Positions 16,790 through 26,746 of a DNA stretch of 64,000 nt are shown one piece after another. The notes beneath the pieces were generated by a model. The model was not told where the DNA came from. It ran no database searches and saw nothing but the letters and a program-made list of their open reading frames with translations. This DNA comes from an uncultured Dysgonomonas sp. (GTDB lineage: Bacteria; Bacteroidota; Bacteroidia; Bacteroidales; Dysgonomonadaceae), in NCBI GenBank assembly GCA_945273835.1, contig CALYPL010000003.1:1-64000 (forward strand). Direction: 5' to 3'. Every line of letters begins with the position of its first letter. Within the stretch, counting starts at the first letter, position 1. A program made the translations under genes and the position numbers.

Positions 16790-17404
16790 ATGAAGAGATA
16801 TAAATCCCATCCATGGCATGGTATAAGCATTGGTGAGGATGCACCAGAAATAGTGAGGTGTTATATAGAAATAGTTCCAACGGATACTGTTAAATATGAA
16901 ATTGACAAAGAGTCTGGTTATTTGAGCATAGACCGGCCTCAGAAATACTCCAATATCATACCTGCCCTTTATGGTTTCATTCCACAAACATATAGCGGAA
17001 AAAATGTCGCCGAATTAACGAATCGGGCAATGAACAGAAAAGACATCGAGGGTGATGGTGACCCTGTGGATATATGCGTCCTCACGGAGAAAGATATTAC
17101 ACACGGAGATATTCTGGTCAAAGCTACTCCGATCGGAGGATTCAGACTTATTGACAACAACATGGCTGACGACAAACTGATAGCTGTATTGAAGGATGAC
17201 GCTATTTATGGGTCATTTCAGAGCCTATCGGATTTGCCTGCGTCAGTTATAGAACGTTTAAAACATTACTTTACGACTTATAAGGATTTACCCGGCGACG
17301 ACACGGCTCGATGTGTTCTGACGCAAGTGTATGACGTTGATGTAGCACATGATATTATCCGCCGCTCAATACTCGATTATCAGAATAATTTCGGATACAA
17401 ATAA
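16790..17404 (+). CDS. ppa: family I inorganic pyrophosphatase
   Basis: It hydrolyses pyrophosphate to two phosphates in the cytoplasm, pulling biosynthetic reactions forward. The 204-aa length suits family I. The metal-binding signature DGDPVDICVL is at about residues 86-95, preceded by YGFIPQTY and followed by a second acidic cluster (NNMADDKLIAV). The basic EIDKESGY segment near residue 40 corresponds to the substrate-binding lysine region. It is monocistronic, between a -7 box and a terminator. There is nothing unusual in the catalytic residues that I can see. Confidence 0.93.
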   Translation: MKRYKSHPWHGISIGEDAPEIVRCYIEIVPTDTVKYEIDKESGYLSIDRPQKYSNIIPALYGFIPQTYSGKNVAELTNRAMNRKDIEGDGDPVDICVLTEKDITHGDILVKATPIGGFRLIDNNMADDKLIAVLKDDAIYGSFQSLSDLPASVIERLKHYFTTYKDLPGDDTARCVLTQVYDVDVAHDIIRRSILDYQNNFGYK

Positions 17405-22098: not shown

Positions 22099-22443
22099 AT
22101 GACAAAGTCATTTTTATTATTTTCTGTGATTTTTTTTCTTTCGTCATGTAGTTTAAGTTACGAATATAACCTCAATCAGATGAGCAAAGGGCTTGAACGT
22201 CATTTTCAATACAACGACCAAGAAAAGAATATTATTACCAAAATAGACTTTATTAAACCATTATCATATATCAAGTTAGGCAATGATGACAGAGTGATGC
22301 AAGACGATGTTTATCTCGCACGCTTTTACGTGAAGGGAAAGTGGATGAACGACGGAAGTTCATTGGTTTATAATATCAATGATACGATAGCCTGTTATTT
22401 TGATAAAAACATGAGATATCTGAGAATGAAACCCAACGAATAG
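22099..22443 (+). CDS. small lipoprotein of unknown function
   Basis: 114 aa with a lipoprotein signal peptide (FLLFSVIFFLSSC, Cys at 17). The mature part has no acidic export signal after the Cys (CSLSYEYNL). It ends in a short strand-rich region (YLARFYVKGKWMNDGSSLVYNINDTIACYFDKN). I do not recognise a family. It lies 26 bases upstream of the ABC ATPase gene, in the same direction and behind the same promoter, so it is probably part of that transporter locus. It may be an accessory subunit, which is inference from position only. Confidence 0.8.
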   Translation: MTKSFLLFSVIFFLSSCSLSYEYNLNQMSKGLERHFQYNDQEKNIITKIDFIKPLSYIKLGNDDRVMQDDVYLARFYVKGKWMNDGSSLVYNINDTIACYFDKNMRYLRMKPNE

Positions 22444-22469
22444 AATTTTATACTTAATTGATTAAAATA

Positions 22470-23630
22470 ATGACAAACTTGACTAACTACTTAGACGAGA
22501 TTAAGCAAATGTTTATTTTCGGTGATTGCAAATTAATTTTAAAACGCATCATAGACCTTACTCTCGATTCTCAAAACATTGAACAATATAGTAAAACCGT
22601 TGATTTGTTAGATTGGATTGACCTGAATGAAGCAAATACTGTCAGCATTACTGAAAAATTGCAGGAGAGGTTTAATGAACTGGCCGAACTGTTATTGAAG
22701 CAAACGGCTGATTTTAACAACAATCCACTTATCACAACGGTTGATTTGACAAAAACTTATGGAAATGCAGCATTTCGGTTAGGACCTGTGAACTTAACTA
22801 TCCACGAAAGGGAAATTATCGGTTTGGTTGGCGAAAACGGTAATGGTAAAACAACTTTATTGCGTTCGCTTTGTAGGGAACTGAAACCAACGAGCGGCTC
22901 AATCAGTTATCATTTTGATTATACTGATAATTACGATCTGCGTTCAAAGTTGATTTATATTCCCCAACGAACTAAAGTTTGTAAAGGCGGACTTTTGGAA
23001 AATTTGAGCTTTACGGCCGCTATTTATGGCCTGAAAGGTAAGGAAAACATATTGATGGTAGATCTTGTCATCGCCCGAATGGGACTACGCAAGTTCCGGA
23101 ATTACTCGTGGAAAAGTCTGTCATCGGGATATAAGATGCGCTTTGAGTTGGCGCGTGTTTTACTTCAAAAGCCCAAAATATTAGTGATTGACGAGCCTCT
23201 TGCTAATCTTGATATTATGGCTCAGCAGACTGTGCTCGATGACTTCAGGCATATCGCTAAATCGCCTTTCAGACCAATGGGAATTGTGCTTAGTTCGCAA
23301 CAGCTGTACGAAGTGGAAAAGGCATCGGATGAAGTTATTTTCCTTAAAAATGGTGCACCCCGCAATCTTGTCAAAAATGAGACTAATCAACCTGACGAGA
23401 TTAAGCAATTTATTATTGAGTTTGAATCTGATTGGAAGCAAGAAGCTTTATATGAATTGTTACTACAATCCGGCTTAAGCAGTCTGAAAATGAATGGAGG
23501 TACTTATATCGCCAATTTCCCCGATACCTTTAAGCAGGAAGATTTTTTTAAAATAATATTTGAAAACAAAGTTCCTGTAAACTATTACCGAAACATAACA
23601 AATTCTACAAGACGCTTTTTTATATCATAA
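22470..23630 (+). CDS. ABC transporter ATPase with helical N-terminal extension
   Basis: 386 aa. Residues 1-85 form a predicted all-helical extension (YLDEIKQMFIFGDCKLIL, LDWIDLNEA) that ordinary ABC-2 ATPases lack. The nucleotide-binding domain starts at ITTVDLTKTYG, with Walker A GENGNGKTT near residue 136, Q-loop YIPQ, signature LSSGYKMRFELARVLLQ and Walker B ILVIDEPLANLD. Instead of the usual H-loop His, IVLSSQQLYEVE is seen, with Gln at the switch position. The C-terminus ends YYRNITNSTRRFF, a common tail of Bacteroidota ABC-2 ATPases. ATG 22470 is preferred over TTG 22458. Eleven bases after its stop the first membrane protein begins. Confidence 0.88.
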   Translation: MTNLTNYLDEIKQMFIFGDCKLILKRIIDLTLDSQNIEQYSKTVDLLDWIDLNEANTVSITEKLQERFNELAELLLKQTADFNNNPLITTVDLTKTYGNAAFRLGPVNLTIHEREIIGLVGENGNGKTTLLRSLCRELKPTSGSISYHFDYTDNYDLRSKLIYIPQRTKVCKGGLLENLSFTAAIYGLKGKENILMVDLVIARMGLRKFRNYSWKSLSSGYKMRFELARVLLQKPKILVIDEPLANLDIMAQQTVLDDFRHIAKSPFRPMGIVLSSQQLYEVEKASDEVIFLKNGAPRNLVKNETNQPDEIKQFIIEFESDWKQEALYELLLQSGLSSLKMNGGTYIANFPDTFKQEDFFKIIFENKVPVNYYRNITNSTRRFFIS

Positions 23631-23641
23631 TATTACTTCAT

Positions 23642-25171
23642 ATGAATAAAATACAAAAATACATACTTACGCATTATCCCATTATCTGGAATATCAGATT
23701 AGTCCCCATGCTGTTCTTAACTCTGATCATGCATATATTATTCTACCTGATAGGTTATATTTTTGGGAATACTGACTTCAACGAGATTATCTCATATTAT
23801 CATTCAAGCGTATATTATTCGATATATTTGCCTCTTCTCTATCTACTATCAATAATTACTGCTACATTAATTCTGATCAGTTGGTTTGTGTTTTATATGC
23901 GCAACAACAGAATCGCGAATTACTATCCGGCTAAAACCAAACAAATGTATGGAGAATGGATATTAATTTTTATAATTATCGGTTCAGCCGTGTTTATTCC
24001 TTATAGCCTTCGGCTGGGATTATCCGATCGAGCATTATATATCATAAACTTAAACAAGGCAGATGAAAATAAAGTTATCAAAACATTACAAATGACTGAA
24101 GTTCTAATACCAAACGATATCAAACCAGTCATCAGATGCAACATTGACTCTTTAAAACATTATGCCAACGACTCAGATTCAGCTAAATTATCAGTATCGC
24201 AAACTCCATCTCTGCTAAACTACTCTGATGACAGTTCATACATGTATTATGAAATAAATAATAAAAATCGTAATGAAAACATACTAAAAGTGAAGCAATG
24301 GTTAAGAGATGGACAGACGGATAGTATACGTGCATTGATGAATGATTTTTACCAATTGTTACTCAAACACAATTTAGTTGAAGATAATACACTCAAACCC
24401 GATCAATGGTTTGAACGCATTTACAATCCCCCTTATTTCAATATTAATCATAATAATATAATATTACGTGACTCAAGTGAGATCGATTATAAGATTGATT
24501 ATAATGCTGTAAGAAAAGAAATTTACTTACCTGGTACCTTTAGTACAGATACAATCTATGTAGGAAATCAAGAAAACATAGATGATTACGTTTTAAACAT
24601 CTATCCGGTTTTACAGTTTAACAATCTGCAGGATATGTATAATAGAATTATAACTTGTACTAAAGATTTCAAAAGTAGGAGTGAGGTGCCATTGCTGCTA
24701 TTCATAACCGTGTTAATATCAATATTCATATTATCCATCCGTTTAACAAATACTGCATCATGGTTCAAAGCATTCATCATATGCGGTATAGCATTTTTAT
24801 CGCTGACTTTTATGGATTTAATCCTTATATTTGATTCTGGGTATCATTTCATTTTAGTTCCATTATTCGGATTGATTCTAACCATTACTACCGTCACGAA
24901 CCTGTGTTATAAAATAATGTTTTCACGCTCCAAAGGCTTTTCTAATGTGACAGCAAACATCTTTTTATGGTTTATACCTTTGATTATACTTATAATATAT
25001 TTTCTGCTGTCAATATTAATAGATGAAACGAGGTATTCATATATACATGAAAATGAGTATGTCATGTTACTTGAAAAAAATCTGTTATGGATAAATCTTG
25101 CGTTTACAATTGTCATCATGTATCCTGTAATGGCTTTTCTACGTCGTTGGAAAGGCTTACCCGATGAATAA
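23642..25171 (+). CDS. multi-pass membrane protein, paralogue 1 of the ABC locus
   Basis: 509 aa with three hydrophobic helices in the N-terminal 125 residues, a large extracytoplasmic domain (about 130-350), then four to five C-terminal helices. This is the topology of an ABC-2 or MacB-like permease, although no named domain is recognised. It is clearly paralogous to the gene 126 bases downstream. Shared blocks are MNKIQ at the start, NYYPAKTKQMYGEWILIF, VKQWLRDGQTDSI, QWFERIYNPPYF and the end YPVMAFLRRWKGLPDE. The position directly after the ATPase gene suggests it is the membrane partner. The function is inferred from context. Confidence 0.8.
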   Translation: MNKIQKYILTHYPIIWNIRLVPMLFLTLIMHILFYLIGYIFGNTDFNEIISYYHSSVYYSIYLPLLYLLSIITATLILISWFVFYMRNNRIANYYPAKTKQMYGEWILIFIIIGSAVFIPYSLRLGLSDRALYIINLNKADENKVIKTLQMTEVLIPNDIKPVIRCNIDSLKHYANDSDSAKLSVSQTPSLLNYSDDSSYMYYEINNKNRNENILKVKQWLRDGQTDSIRALMNDFYQLLLKHNLVEDNTLKPDQWFERIYNPPYFNINHNNIILRDSSEIDYKIDYNAVRKEIYLPGTFSTDTIYVGNQENIDDYVLNIYPVLQFNNLQDMYNRIITCTKDFKSRSEVPLLLFITVLISIFILSIRLTNTASWFKAFIICGIAFLSLTFMDLILIFDSGYHFILVPLFGLILTITTVTNLCYKIMFSRSKGFSNVTANIFLWFIPLIILIIYFLLSILIDETRYSYIHENEYVMLLEKNLLWINLAFTIVIMYPVMAFLRRWKGLPDE

Positions 25172-25190
25172 GACAAATCAGCCTTTATAA

Positions 25191-25257
25191 TGCGGAAATA
25201 TGATTTAAAAATAACGCAGTTTCTTAACAAAACAGCTTGATTATAAATATTTCCGCA
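25191..25257. repeat. 11-bp inverted repeat between the two membrane-protein paralogues
   Basis: tgcggaaatat (25191-25201) and atatttccgca (25247-25257) are perfect inverted copies separated by 45 bases. No U-tract follows, so a simple terminator is unlikely. It could be an RNA structure regulating the second paralogue, or a protein site. Confidence 0.7.
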
Positions 25258-25297
25258 ATATATTGTAAAATCATCTGAGAAAATAAAATAATCGTAA

Positions 25298-26683
25298 ATG
25301 AATAAAATACAACAATTCTTACTTACTAACTATCCAACCATCTGGAATGTAAAATTATTTCCGATATTGCTATTACTCATATTAGTCCATTTATTAATGG
25401 TTTTTATAGGCTTCAAAGTAGAAAAATTGGATTTTGAACATATATTTTACAGTTTCGGATCTGCAGATTCAGATAGGGAACTGATCCTAAAATTAATATT
25501 ATGTTGTTCTGTACTTATCGCTATTCTTTTATTTATCGGATGGCTGGTTTACTATGCACGCCACAATAGACTAAGTAATCATTATCCCGCTAAAACAAGA
25601 CAAATATACGGAGAATGGCTCCTTGTGTTCAGTATTATCTTAATGATTACGGCTATCCCCTTCAGTTTTATGGAAGGGTGCAGATTACGAGGAAAGTCAA
25701 CAGCCGATATAGAAGAAGTAAATGATGCGCTAAAAACATTATATTTGGCACAAATACTCATACCAAATGATAGTTATTCGTATAGATGTAATTATATAGA
25801 GCAAACAAATTTAATTCCCTTACCCGATAGTTTAGCAAACAATTTAAATAATCCTGATATAAGAAGTACCTATTTTCTTGACGACAATCAATATGAAATA
25901 TTTAAAGAAAATAAATACATCGGCAATTCAATTCTATATTTAAAAAAAGAAACTGTATATGCTAATAAAGTTAAACAATGGCTCATTGATGGTGAAACAG
26001 ACAGTATACAGGCAGTAATGATTGCTTTTGAAAAATTAATTACCAAAGCAGACATAAAATACCCAAACATTATTACAGCTGAGCAGTGGTTTAACCGTAT
26101 TTACCATCCCCCCTTCTTCCCCGTTAACAAAAGAACAATGATAGGAGATTATAATTATGAATATAATATGACAAAGCCTATATTGCCTTTTACAGTATTT
26201 ACAACAAGGTATGAATATATTTTAAGTTGCCATACAAATAGCATTTATTCCAATGATACGCTACTGACCATATTTTGCATAGCTACTTTACTCTCTCTTT
26301 TAGTAATGGCGGCAAAGATAACAAATTTAAAAAATTGGATTAAATCATTCATCATCGTGGGATTAATATCATTATTCAGCATTATTTTAACAATGATACT
26401 GTCGGAATTTAAAACTTTTATGATAATGTGTGTCATCACTTTTATCATCAGCTTCATTTACATAATACATCATGTGCTAATTTCAGAAAGCAAAAATCAT
26501 TCAGCAATTATTATCAATATATTTATATTCCTAATACCCTTCTTCATACCTTTATTGTATAAAATTTGCCCTATTGATTATAGTTTCACTAAAATATTAT
26601 GGTACAATCTTGCAATAATTTTGGTCGTTATGTACCCTATCCTAAAACTTTTACGCAGTTGGAAAGGATTGGCAGAAGAATAA
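25298..26683 (+). CDS. multi-pass membrane protein, paralogue 2 of the ABC locus
   Basis: 461 aa, with the same architecture as paralogue 1: three N-terminal helices, an extracytoplasmic central domain and a C-terminal helix bundle. Aligned blocks are HNRLSNHYPAKTRQIYGEW, VKQWLIDGETDSIQAVM, QWFNRIYHPPFF and YPILKLLRSWKGLAEE. The central domain is about 50 residues shorter than in paralogue 1 and has diverged strongly, so the duplication looks old. A strong terminator follows, ending the locus. Two different membrane subunits beside one ATPase suggest a heterodimeric permease. There is no recognised family. Confidence 0.8.
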   Translation: MNKIQQFLLTNYPTIWNVKLFPILLLLILVHLLMVFIGFKVEKLDFEHIFYSFGSADSDRELILKLILCCSVLIAILLFIGWLVYYARHNRLSNHYPAKTRQIYGEWLLVFSIILMITAIPFSFMEGCRLRGKSTADIEEVNDALKTLYLAQILIPNDSYSYRCNYIEQTNLIPLPDSLANNLNNPDIRSTYFLDDNQYEIFKENKYIGNSILYLKKETVYANKVKQWLIDGETDSIQAVMIAFEKLITKADIKYPNIITAEQWFNRIYHPPFFPVNKRTMIGDYNYEYNMTKPILPFTVFTTRYEYILSCHTNSIYSNDTLLTIFCIATLLSLLVMAAKITNLKNWIKSFIIVGLISLFSIILTMILSEFKTFMIMCVITFIISFIYIIHHVLISESKNHSAIIINIFIFLIPFFIPLLYKICPIDYSFTKILWYNLAIILVVMYPILKLLRSWKGLAEE

Positions 26684-26703: not shown

Positions 26704-26746
26704 AAAGCGGTTTAGAATGAAGAAACTTTAAACCGCTTTATTTTTA
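26704..26746 (+). terminator. intrinsic terminator of the ABC locus
   Basis: A perfect 11-bp stem, aaagcggttta (26704-26714) with taaaccgcttt (26729-26739), is followed by atttttata. Confidence 0.85.

Follow-up and report, generated by a model that had tools for sequence, protein, structure and literature searches.

According to our analysis, the window (the whole stretch of 64,000 nucleotides analyzed here, from an uncultured Dysgonomonas sp.) carries what we regard, with moderate confidence, as an example of a two-gene ABC system found across Bacteroidota and not described before: an exporter or extractor in the inner membrane, with two ATPase (NBD) chains and two membrane protein (TMP) chains. 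What is conserved is a cassette of two genes, an ABC ATPase gene followed by one membrane protein gene, and not a group of four. Few protein machines are as well catalogued as ABC transporters, whose membrane parts come in a handful of fold types. As far as sequence comparison goes, the NBD-TMP system appears previously undescribed, its membrane part lying outside every family and solved structure searched, and no description of it was found in the literature. An uncatalogued Bacteroidota family that combines an uncommon number of helices with an ATPase domain of its own and a fixed H-loop Gln would widen the list of ABC systems, and its annotation would name a family missed by current models in gut, termite, and environmental Bacteroidota.

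All four co-oriented ORFs that the preliminary description had drawn between positions 22099 and 26683 are present on the plus strand where it had placed them, separated in gene order by gaps of 26, 11, and 126 nt. They encode a small lipoprotein with the lipobox LSSC (22099..22443), an ABC ATPase of 386 aa (22470..23630), the membrane protein TMP1 of 509 aa (23642..25171), and TMP2, a membrane protein of 461 aa (25298..26683). For the ATPase, the start codon ATG 22470 is preferred by alignment, with TTG 22458 also possible. The one strong terminator claimed for the end of the four genes is convincing, being a Rho-independent hairpin 3' of TMP2 (26704..26739, +; -14.9 kcal/mol, z = -5.0, 0/200 shuffles) followed by a T-rich run. 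Absent from that description is a perfect 11-bp inverted repeat in the gap between TMP1 and TMP2 (25191..25257, +), with arms at 25191-25201 and 25247-25257, the sequence TGCGGAAATAT, and a fold z of -4.1. This hairpin could act as an attenuator or as a transcript-end hairpin that sets TMP2 expression apart; it was rejected as a dispersed repeat since it is present as a single copy in the genome.

Four co-oriented genes ahead of one terminator, together with the independent recurrence of tandem TMP duplicates, would fit a four-gene system, in which a lipoprotein assists a heterodimeric exporter. We deem this reading highly improbable, because most relatives have one TMP and the lipoprotein gene is found genus-wide at other loci, also where the cassette is lacking. 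In a whole-genome search, the lipoprotein was detected in all 25 Dysgonomonas genomes (35-44% identity between the window and the other 24), 11 of which are without the cassette; 36 genomes from elsewhere in the family and order gave no match. A tblastn search of the cassette loci of relatives found no copy near their cassettes, and in the ten regions examined outside the window the gene is found apart from the cassette; five of these regions have it near an orthologue of the pyrophosphatase encoded at 16790-17404. Since it is present without the cassette and at other loci, the lipoprotein is a bystander, and the earlier proposal that it is part of the system was rejected on grounds that the preliminary description had itself named, separate occurrence in related genomes. 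No convincing match for it was found in Pfam or NCBIfam. The lipoprotein loci of relatives (L210-L213) are often near an inorganic pyrophosphatase gene.

The ATPase and the membrane protein, instead, are kept as an adjacent pair across relatives. Among 60 relatives searched, TMP1 homologues are present in 14, of which 13 belong to the genus of the window and one to a different genus in its family, and same-strand NBD-TMP adjacency was found in 14 relatives as well as in the window. The cassette occurs in 14 of the 25 Dysgonomonas genomes and also in Flavobacterium, in Bacteroides sp. 519, and in several termite-gut or uncultured MAGs. The search of named genomes gave 27 loci with the NBD-TMP pair, L076 stopping within the TMP gene, while the class-level loci with an adjacent pair number 26, L120 beginning near the TMP gene so that the upstream gene is missing from the sequence. 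Both genes lie side by side in all loci but one or two. Where a locus offers enough sequence, an orthologue of the window ATPase (54-60% identity) is encoded directly 5' of the TMP gene and in its orientation, and the gaps between the two genes in relatives are about 10-60 nt. In the sampled Bacteroidia the cassette is present in 28 of 395 genomes (~7%), and when a broader profile was run on 396 genomes from the phylum, every member it detected, bar one marginal match, was in Bacteroidia. The distribution, as known from searches of Bacteroidota, is patchy across that phylum. A scan of genome contigs with the single TMP1 sequence gave no matches, whereas an alignment-based scan did, and a profile of the N-terminal domain of the ATPase revealed three further cassettes absent from the list obtained with the TMP profile, each with an adjoining TMP gene.

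The genes flanking the cassette vary between lineages. No conserved operon partner was found among 20 scanned neighbors, of which those matched by Pfam are unrelated housekeeping or miscellaneous genes, including a tRNA ligase, a GMP synthase, an aldose epimerase, and an acyltransferase, and neither a linked substrate-binding protein nor an outer-membrane component was found beside the cassettes examined. Since no neighbor is conserved, the system appears to be self-contained. A link with ATP synthase was rejected, given that the synteny is seen in most, not all, Dysgonomonas and is absent in Flavobacterium and in distant relatives. Anti-phage defense was likewise rejected, since the PADLOC models gave no match to both genes, the NBD showing only generic ATPase similarity and the TMPs none. 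No plasmid-borne copies were found for a Flavobacterium TMP. In comparisons of close pairs, the NBD has a dN/dS of 0.05-0.08 and the TMP one of 0.10-0.22; both genes are under purifying selection and, in light of these low values, are functional.

The ATPase matches PF00005 (1e-25; 91.4 bits, cut-off 25). The Walker A GENGNGKTT, the variant signature LSSGY, the Walker B LLIDEP, and the D-loop LANLD are conserved in the family, whose NBDs have the Walker B catalytic Glu and the signature helix intact. In the AF2 model (pLDDT 84), a canonical ABC core lies between an N-terminal and a C-terminal domain. The extra helical N-terminus of about 85 residues reported earlier is predicted by AF2 to consist of four helices (3-17, 20-34, 37-52, and 57-75; pLDDT mostly >88) and is a family-wide trait. 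This domain (22470..22709, +) carries the motif GDxxLxxRRxxDxxLDT and has no match in Pfam or in the PDB; its profile (A6), when searched in 247 genomes of the class, retrieved almost exclusively family ATPase ORFs of ~380-430 aa, and by these comparisons the domain appears to be family-specific. Two family ATPases, at L131 and L132, are 303 aa long and are without the four-helix domain. The C-terminal domain (23406..23627, +) is apparently ferredoxin-like, as modelled from the AF2 secondary-structure order beta-alpha-beta-beta-alpha-beta, and ends in the conserved tail TNSTRRFFIS, for which the family consensus is NISNSTRRFFLS.

The Gln described at the H-loop position is Gln277 (codon CAA, 23298..23300, +; context LSSQQ), and it is no oddity of the window genome. 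It aligns to the H-loop His of two other genome NBDs taken as references (L001 and L003), and the H-loop reads [ST]SQ[QHN] in 52/52 distinct readable members of the family. The switch histidine of the H-loop is common in ABC ATPases and is no absolute requirement, and a family-wide Gln is a natural test of whether or not it is dispensable. By analogy with the His-to-Gln mutant of NBS2 in human ABCC1, of which the transport was wild-type-like (PMC7756269), the Gln need not mean that the ATPase is inactive. It could, however, make ATP hydrolysis slow.

As had been suspected, the membrane subunits do not belong to a named family: neither TMP1 nor TMP2 has a convincing match in Pfam or NCBIfam or a match in PADLOC, TMP1 has none among PDB sequences, and the ABC2, LptFG, and FtsX Pfam profiles match none of 52 diverse TMP members. 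Hydropathy and AF2 predict ~8 TM helices, with re-entrant helices possible, in a topology where an amphipathic N-terminus is followed by TM1-3, an extracytoplasmic domain of ~200 residues, and five more TM helices. The amphipathic helices (2-17) that precede TM1 are elbow-like in the AF2 model. Eight TM peaks and positively charged cytosolic loops form a pattern that is kept in the distant L132 and L136. In TMP1, the extracytoplasmic domain (aa ~131-345; 24032..24676, +) corresponds to a hydrophilic 222-aa stretch from TM3 to TM4 and is modelled, at low confidence, as mainly helical. The AF2 monomer, built from an alignment of just 26 sequences, has a pLDDT of 74.7; a Foldseek search with it against the PDB gave no match, which is weak evidence given a monomer model of moderate confidence. 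The cytosolic loop between TM2 and TM3 of TMP1 (23918..23959, +) is the most conserved stretch of the protein and, judging from its sequence, is the probable coupling element for the NBD. The two end blocks said to be shared by the membrane proteins were confirmed (NYYPAKTKQMYGEW in TMP1 and NHYPAKTRQIYGEW in TMP2; WKGLPDE and WKGLAEE, respectively), and hydropathy and charge place them in this loop and in the C-terminal tail. When the TMP subgroup of Dysgonomonas and Flavobacterium was compared with that of distant families, hhalign gave 100% (E 3e-50, 467 columns), and the two subgroups are one family end to end. Membrane proteins of 390-400 aa from Flavobacteriaceae (L145-L154; for example, L145:1240-2409, -, and L152:928-2130, -) match the part of the TMP profile that covers TM1-3 and the extracytoplasmic domain, have no Pfam match, and are without an adjoining ATPase in the two loci read; they are possible remote, half-size relatives of the TMPs.

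In the classification of ABC systems by their transmembrane domains, where type VI is without an elbow helix, the elbow-like helix and the C-terminal domain of the ATPase point to type V (PMC8386196). With type V systems (ABC-2/DrrAB, NosFY, ABCA, and Wzm-Wzt) the cassette shares the elbow-like N-terminal helix, the TM2-TM3 coupling loop, the C-terminal domain after the ABC core, and an NBD that is nearest to DrrA and GldA in NCBIfam, both under the curated cut-off (104.5 versus 312 and 99 versus 403), and to ABCA and NosF among structures, where the matches are ABCA4/ABCA3, NosF, PmtC, and MacB, with the importers MetN and CbiO also among the top ones. In G624 (L247: 974-4943), one ATPase is followed by three tandem TMP paralogues. 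These are only 273-289 aa long, lack the extracytoplasmic domain, and show about 7 hydrophobic peaks, which also speaks for a type V ancestry. However, the TMP described here has ~8 TM helices instead of 6 and ~200 aa of extracytoplasmic domain after TM3, and it lacks ABC2 similarity both in the Pfam search of the 52 members and in hhalign, where ABC2_membrane_3 scored 0.5-0.6% against 98.8% for a positive control of two ABC2_3 subgroups. The extra four-helix domain of the NBD and the H-loop Gln add to these differences, and so, as weak evidence, does the empty Foldseek search. That the system is a type V exporter of the known kind (ABC-2/ABCA/Wzm-like), with a membrane part too diverged for its sequence to be recognized, has in our view somewhat less than an even chance; this reading concerns the ancestry of the fold and can stand together with the explanation as a two-gene exporter.

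LptFG, of type VI, has its extracytoplasmic domain between TM3 and TM4. LptB2FG resembles the cassette in this placement but differs from it in that no similarity to the LptF/LptG profiles was found (hhalign 0.2-1.1%), the domain is predicted, at low confidence, to be helical instead of a beta-jellyroll, the TM helices are ~8 instead of 6, and an elbow-like helix, which type VI lacks (PMC8386196), is present. From MacB/FtsX of type VII, the TMP is set apart by the lack of an FtsX match, by an extracytoplasmic domain located after TM3 and not after TM1, and by ~8 TM helices against 4. LnrLMN, YhaQP, and NatAB fall in ABC2 families, and LnrMN has two membrane chains, as in the window species. 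These type V/VI hybrid exporters of Bacillus subtilis share with the cassette an exporter-type NBD, in most cases with regulatory domains, and large extracellular domains on the membrane chains (PMC11466899), whereas the TMP has no ABC2 match and ~8 TM helices. In our opinion, the cassette represents an ABC transporter family that has gone unrecognized; it is probably a type V-like exporter that has diverged, and possibly a new architecture. That the TMP founds a new ABC transmembrane architecture (~8+8 helices, TM3 and TM4 flanking the extracytoplasmic domain), evolved within Bacteroidota and paired with a homodimeric ATPase that has Gln for the switch histidine in both sites as well as a private helical N-terminal domain, is a tentative proposal that we consider rather doubtful.

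The assignment as an exporter rests on the weak resemblance of the NBD, on its C-terminal domain, and on the lack of a linked substrate-binding protein, whereas the importers among the top structure matches of the NBD count against it. In the mechanism that we propose, two ATPase and two membrane chains would assemble at the inner membrane, and sequence comparison suggests that the usual form is most likely a homodimer (NBD2-TMP2, the digits counting chains). The ATPase would contact the cytosolic TM2-TM3 loop (YPxK...YxEW) and probably also the C-terminal tail (WKxLxEE). On ATP binding and hydrolysis, the two ATPase chains would close and pull the loop and tail of both membrane chains, a movement by which the membrane dimer would open beneath the extracytoplasmic domain. 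The latter would handle an envelope-side substrate (a lipid, a peptide, or another amphiphile) or a partner, and either the substrate or force would be moved between the inner membrane and the envelope-facing domain. The main functional rival is an FtsEX-like mechanotransmission, where ATP-driven movements of the TMP are passed on by the extracytoplasmic domain to an enzyme or sensor of the envelope and no substrate is carried across the membrane. That no substrate-binding protein or outer-membrane component was found linked to the cassette would suit this reading, as would the size and fast evolution of the envelope-facing part (dN/dS of 0.14-0.27 in the extracytoplasmic domain versus 0.04-0.13 in the first 130 residues). 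It is nonetheless unlikely, given that an envelope hydrolase is not a conserved neighbor, a single M23/LysM peptidase being found upstream in L069 only, and that the helix count and topology of the TMP are unlike those of FtsX/MacB (4 TM). The exporter or extractor is the reading we prefer.

The two diverged membrane paralogues, from which the preliminary description derived a heterodimer, hold for the window and not in general. TMP1 and TMP2 are sisters in two trees (99/98 and 100/97), on long branches, and TMP2 keeps most of the family-conserved residues, whereas nearly all relatives have a single TMP copy; the pair is thus deemed a lineage-specific tandem duplication. The large extracytoplasmic domains have diverged, as claimed, being just 32% identical, against 68% in the TM2-TM3 loop (aa 85-106) and 70% in the C-terminal tail, a conservation as expected if both proteins dock onto one ATPase. 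Tandem TMP duplicates are found also in G538 (100/99), in G610 (100/100), and in G624, where the branching of the copies is uncertain because of long branches; judging from the trees, duplicates of this kind arose at least three more times, each in a separate lineage. Since the ATPase stays single in each lineage with a duplicated TMP, a mixed membrane dimer is reasonable in the duplicated species, and it is plausible, on sequence grounds, in the window species. There, with the membrane gene duplicated, the complex would probably be an NBD2-TMP1-TMP2 heterodimer, or else two alternative homodimers would share one ATPase. The heterodimer is not a family-defining trait, since the duplicates arose independently and most relatives are single-TMP. 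The recurrent duplication of the membrane gene alone provides natural one- and two-chain versions of one machine. One Dysgonomonas MAG (G004) has a decayed second TMP copy beside atpG (contig C262, L050), with a stop, loss of frame, and a missing C-terminus, while its other copy (contig C35) is frameshifted, perhaps through an error of assembly.
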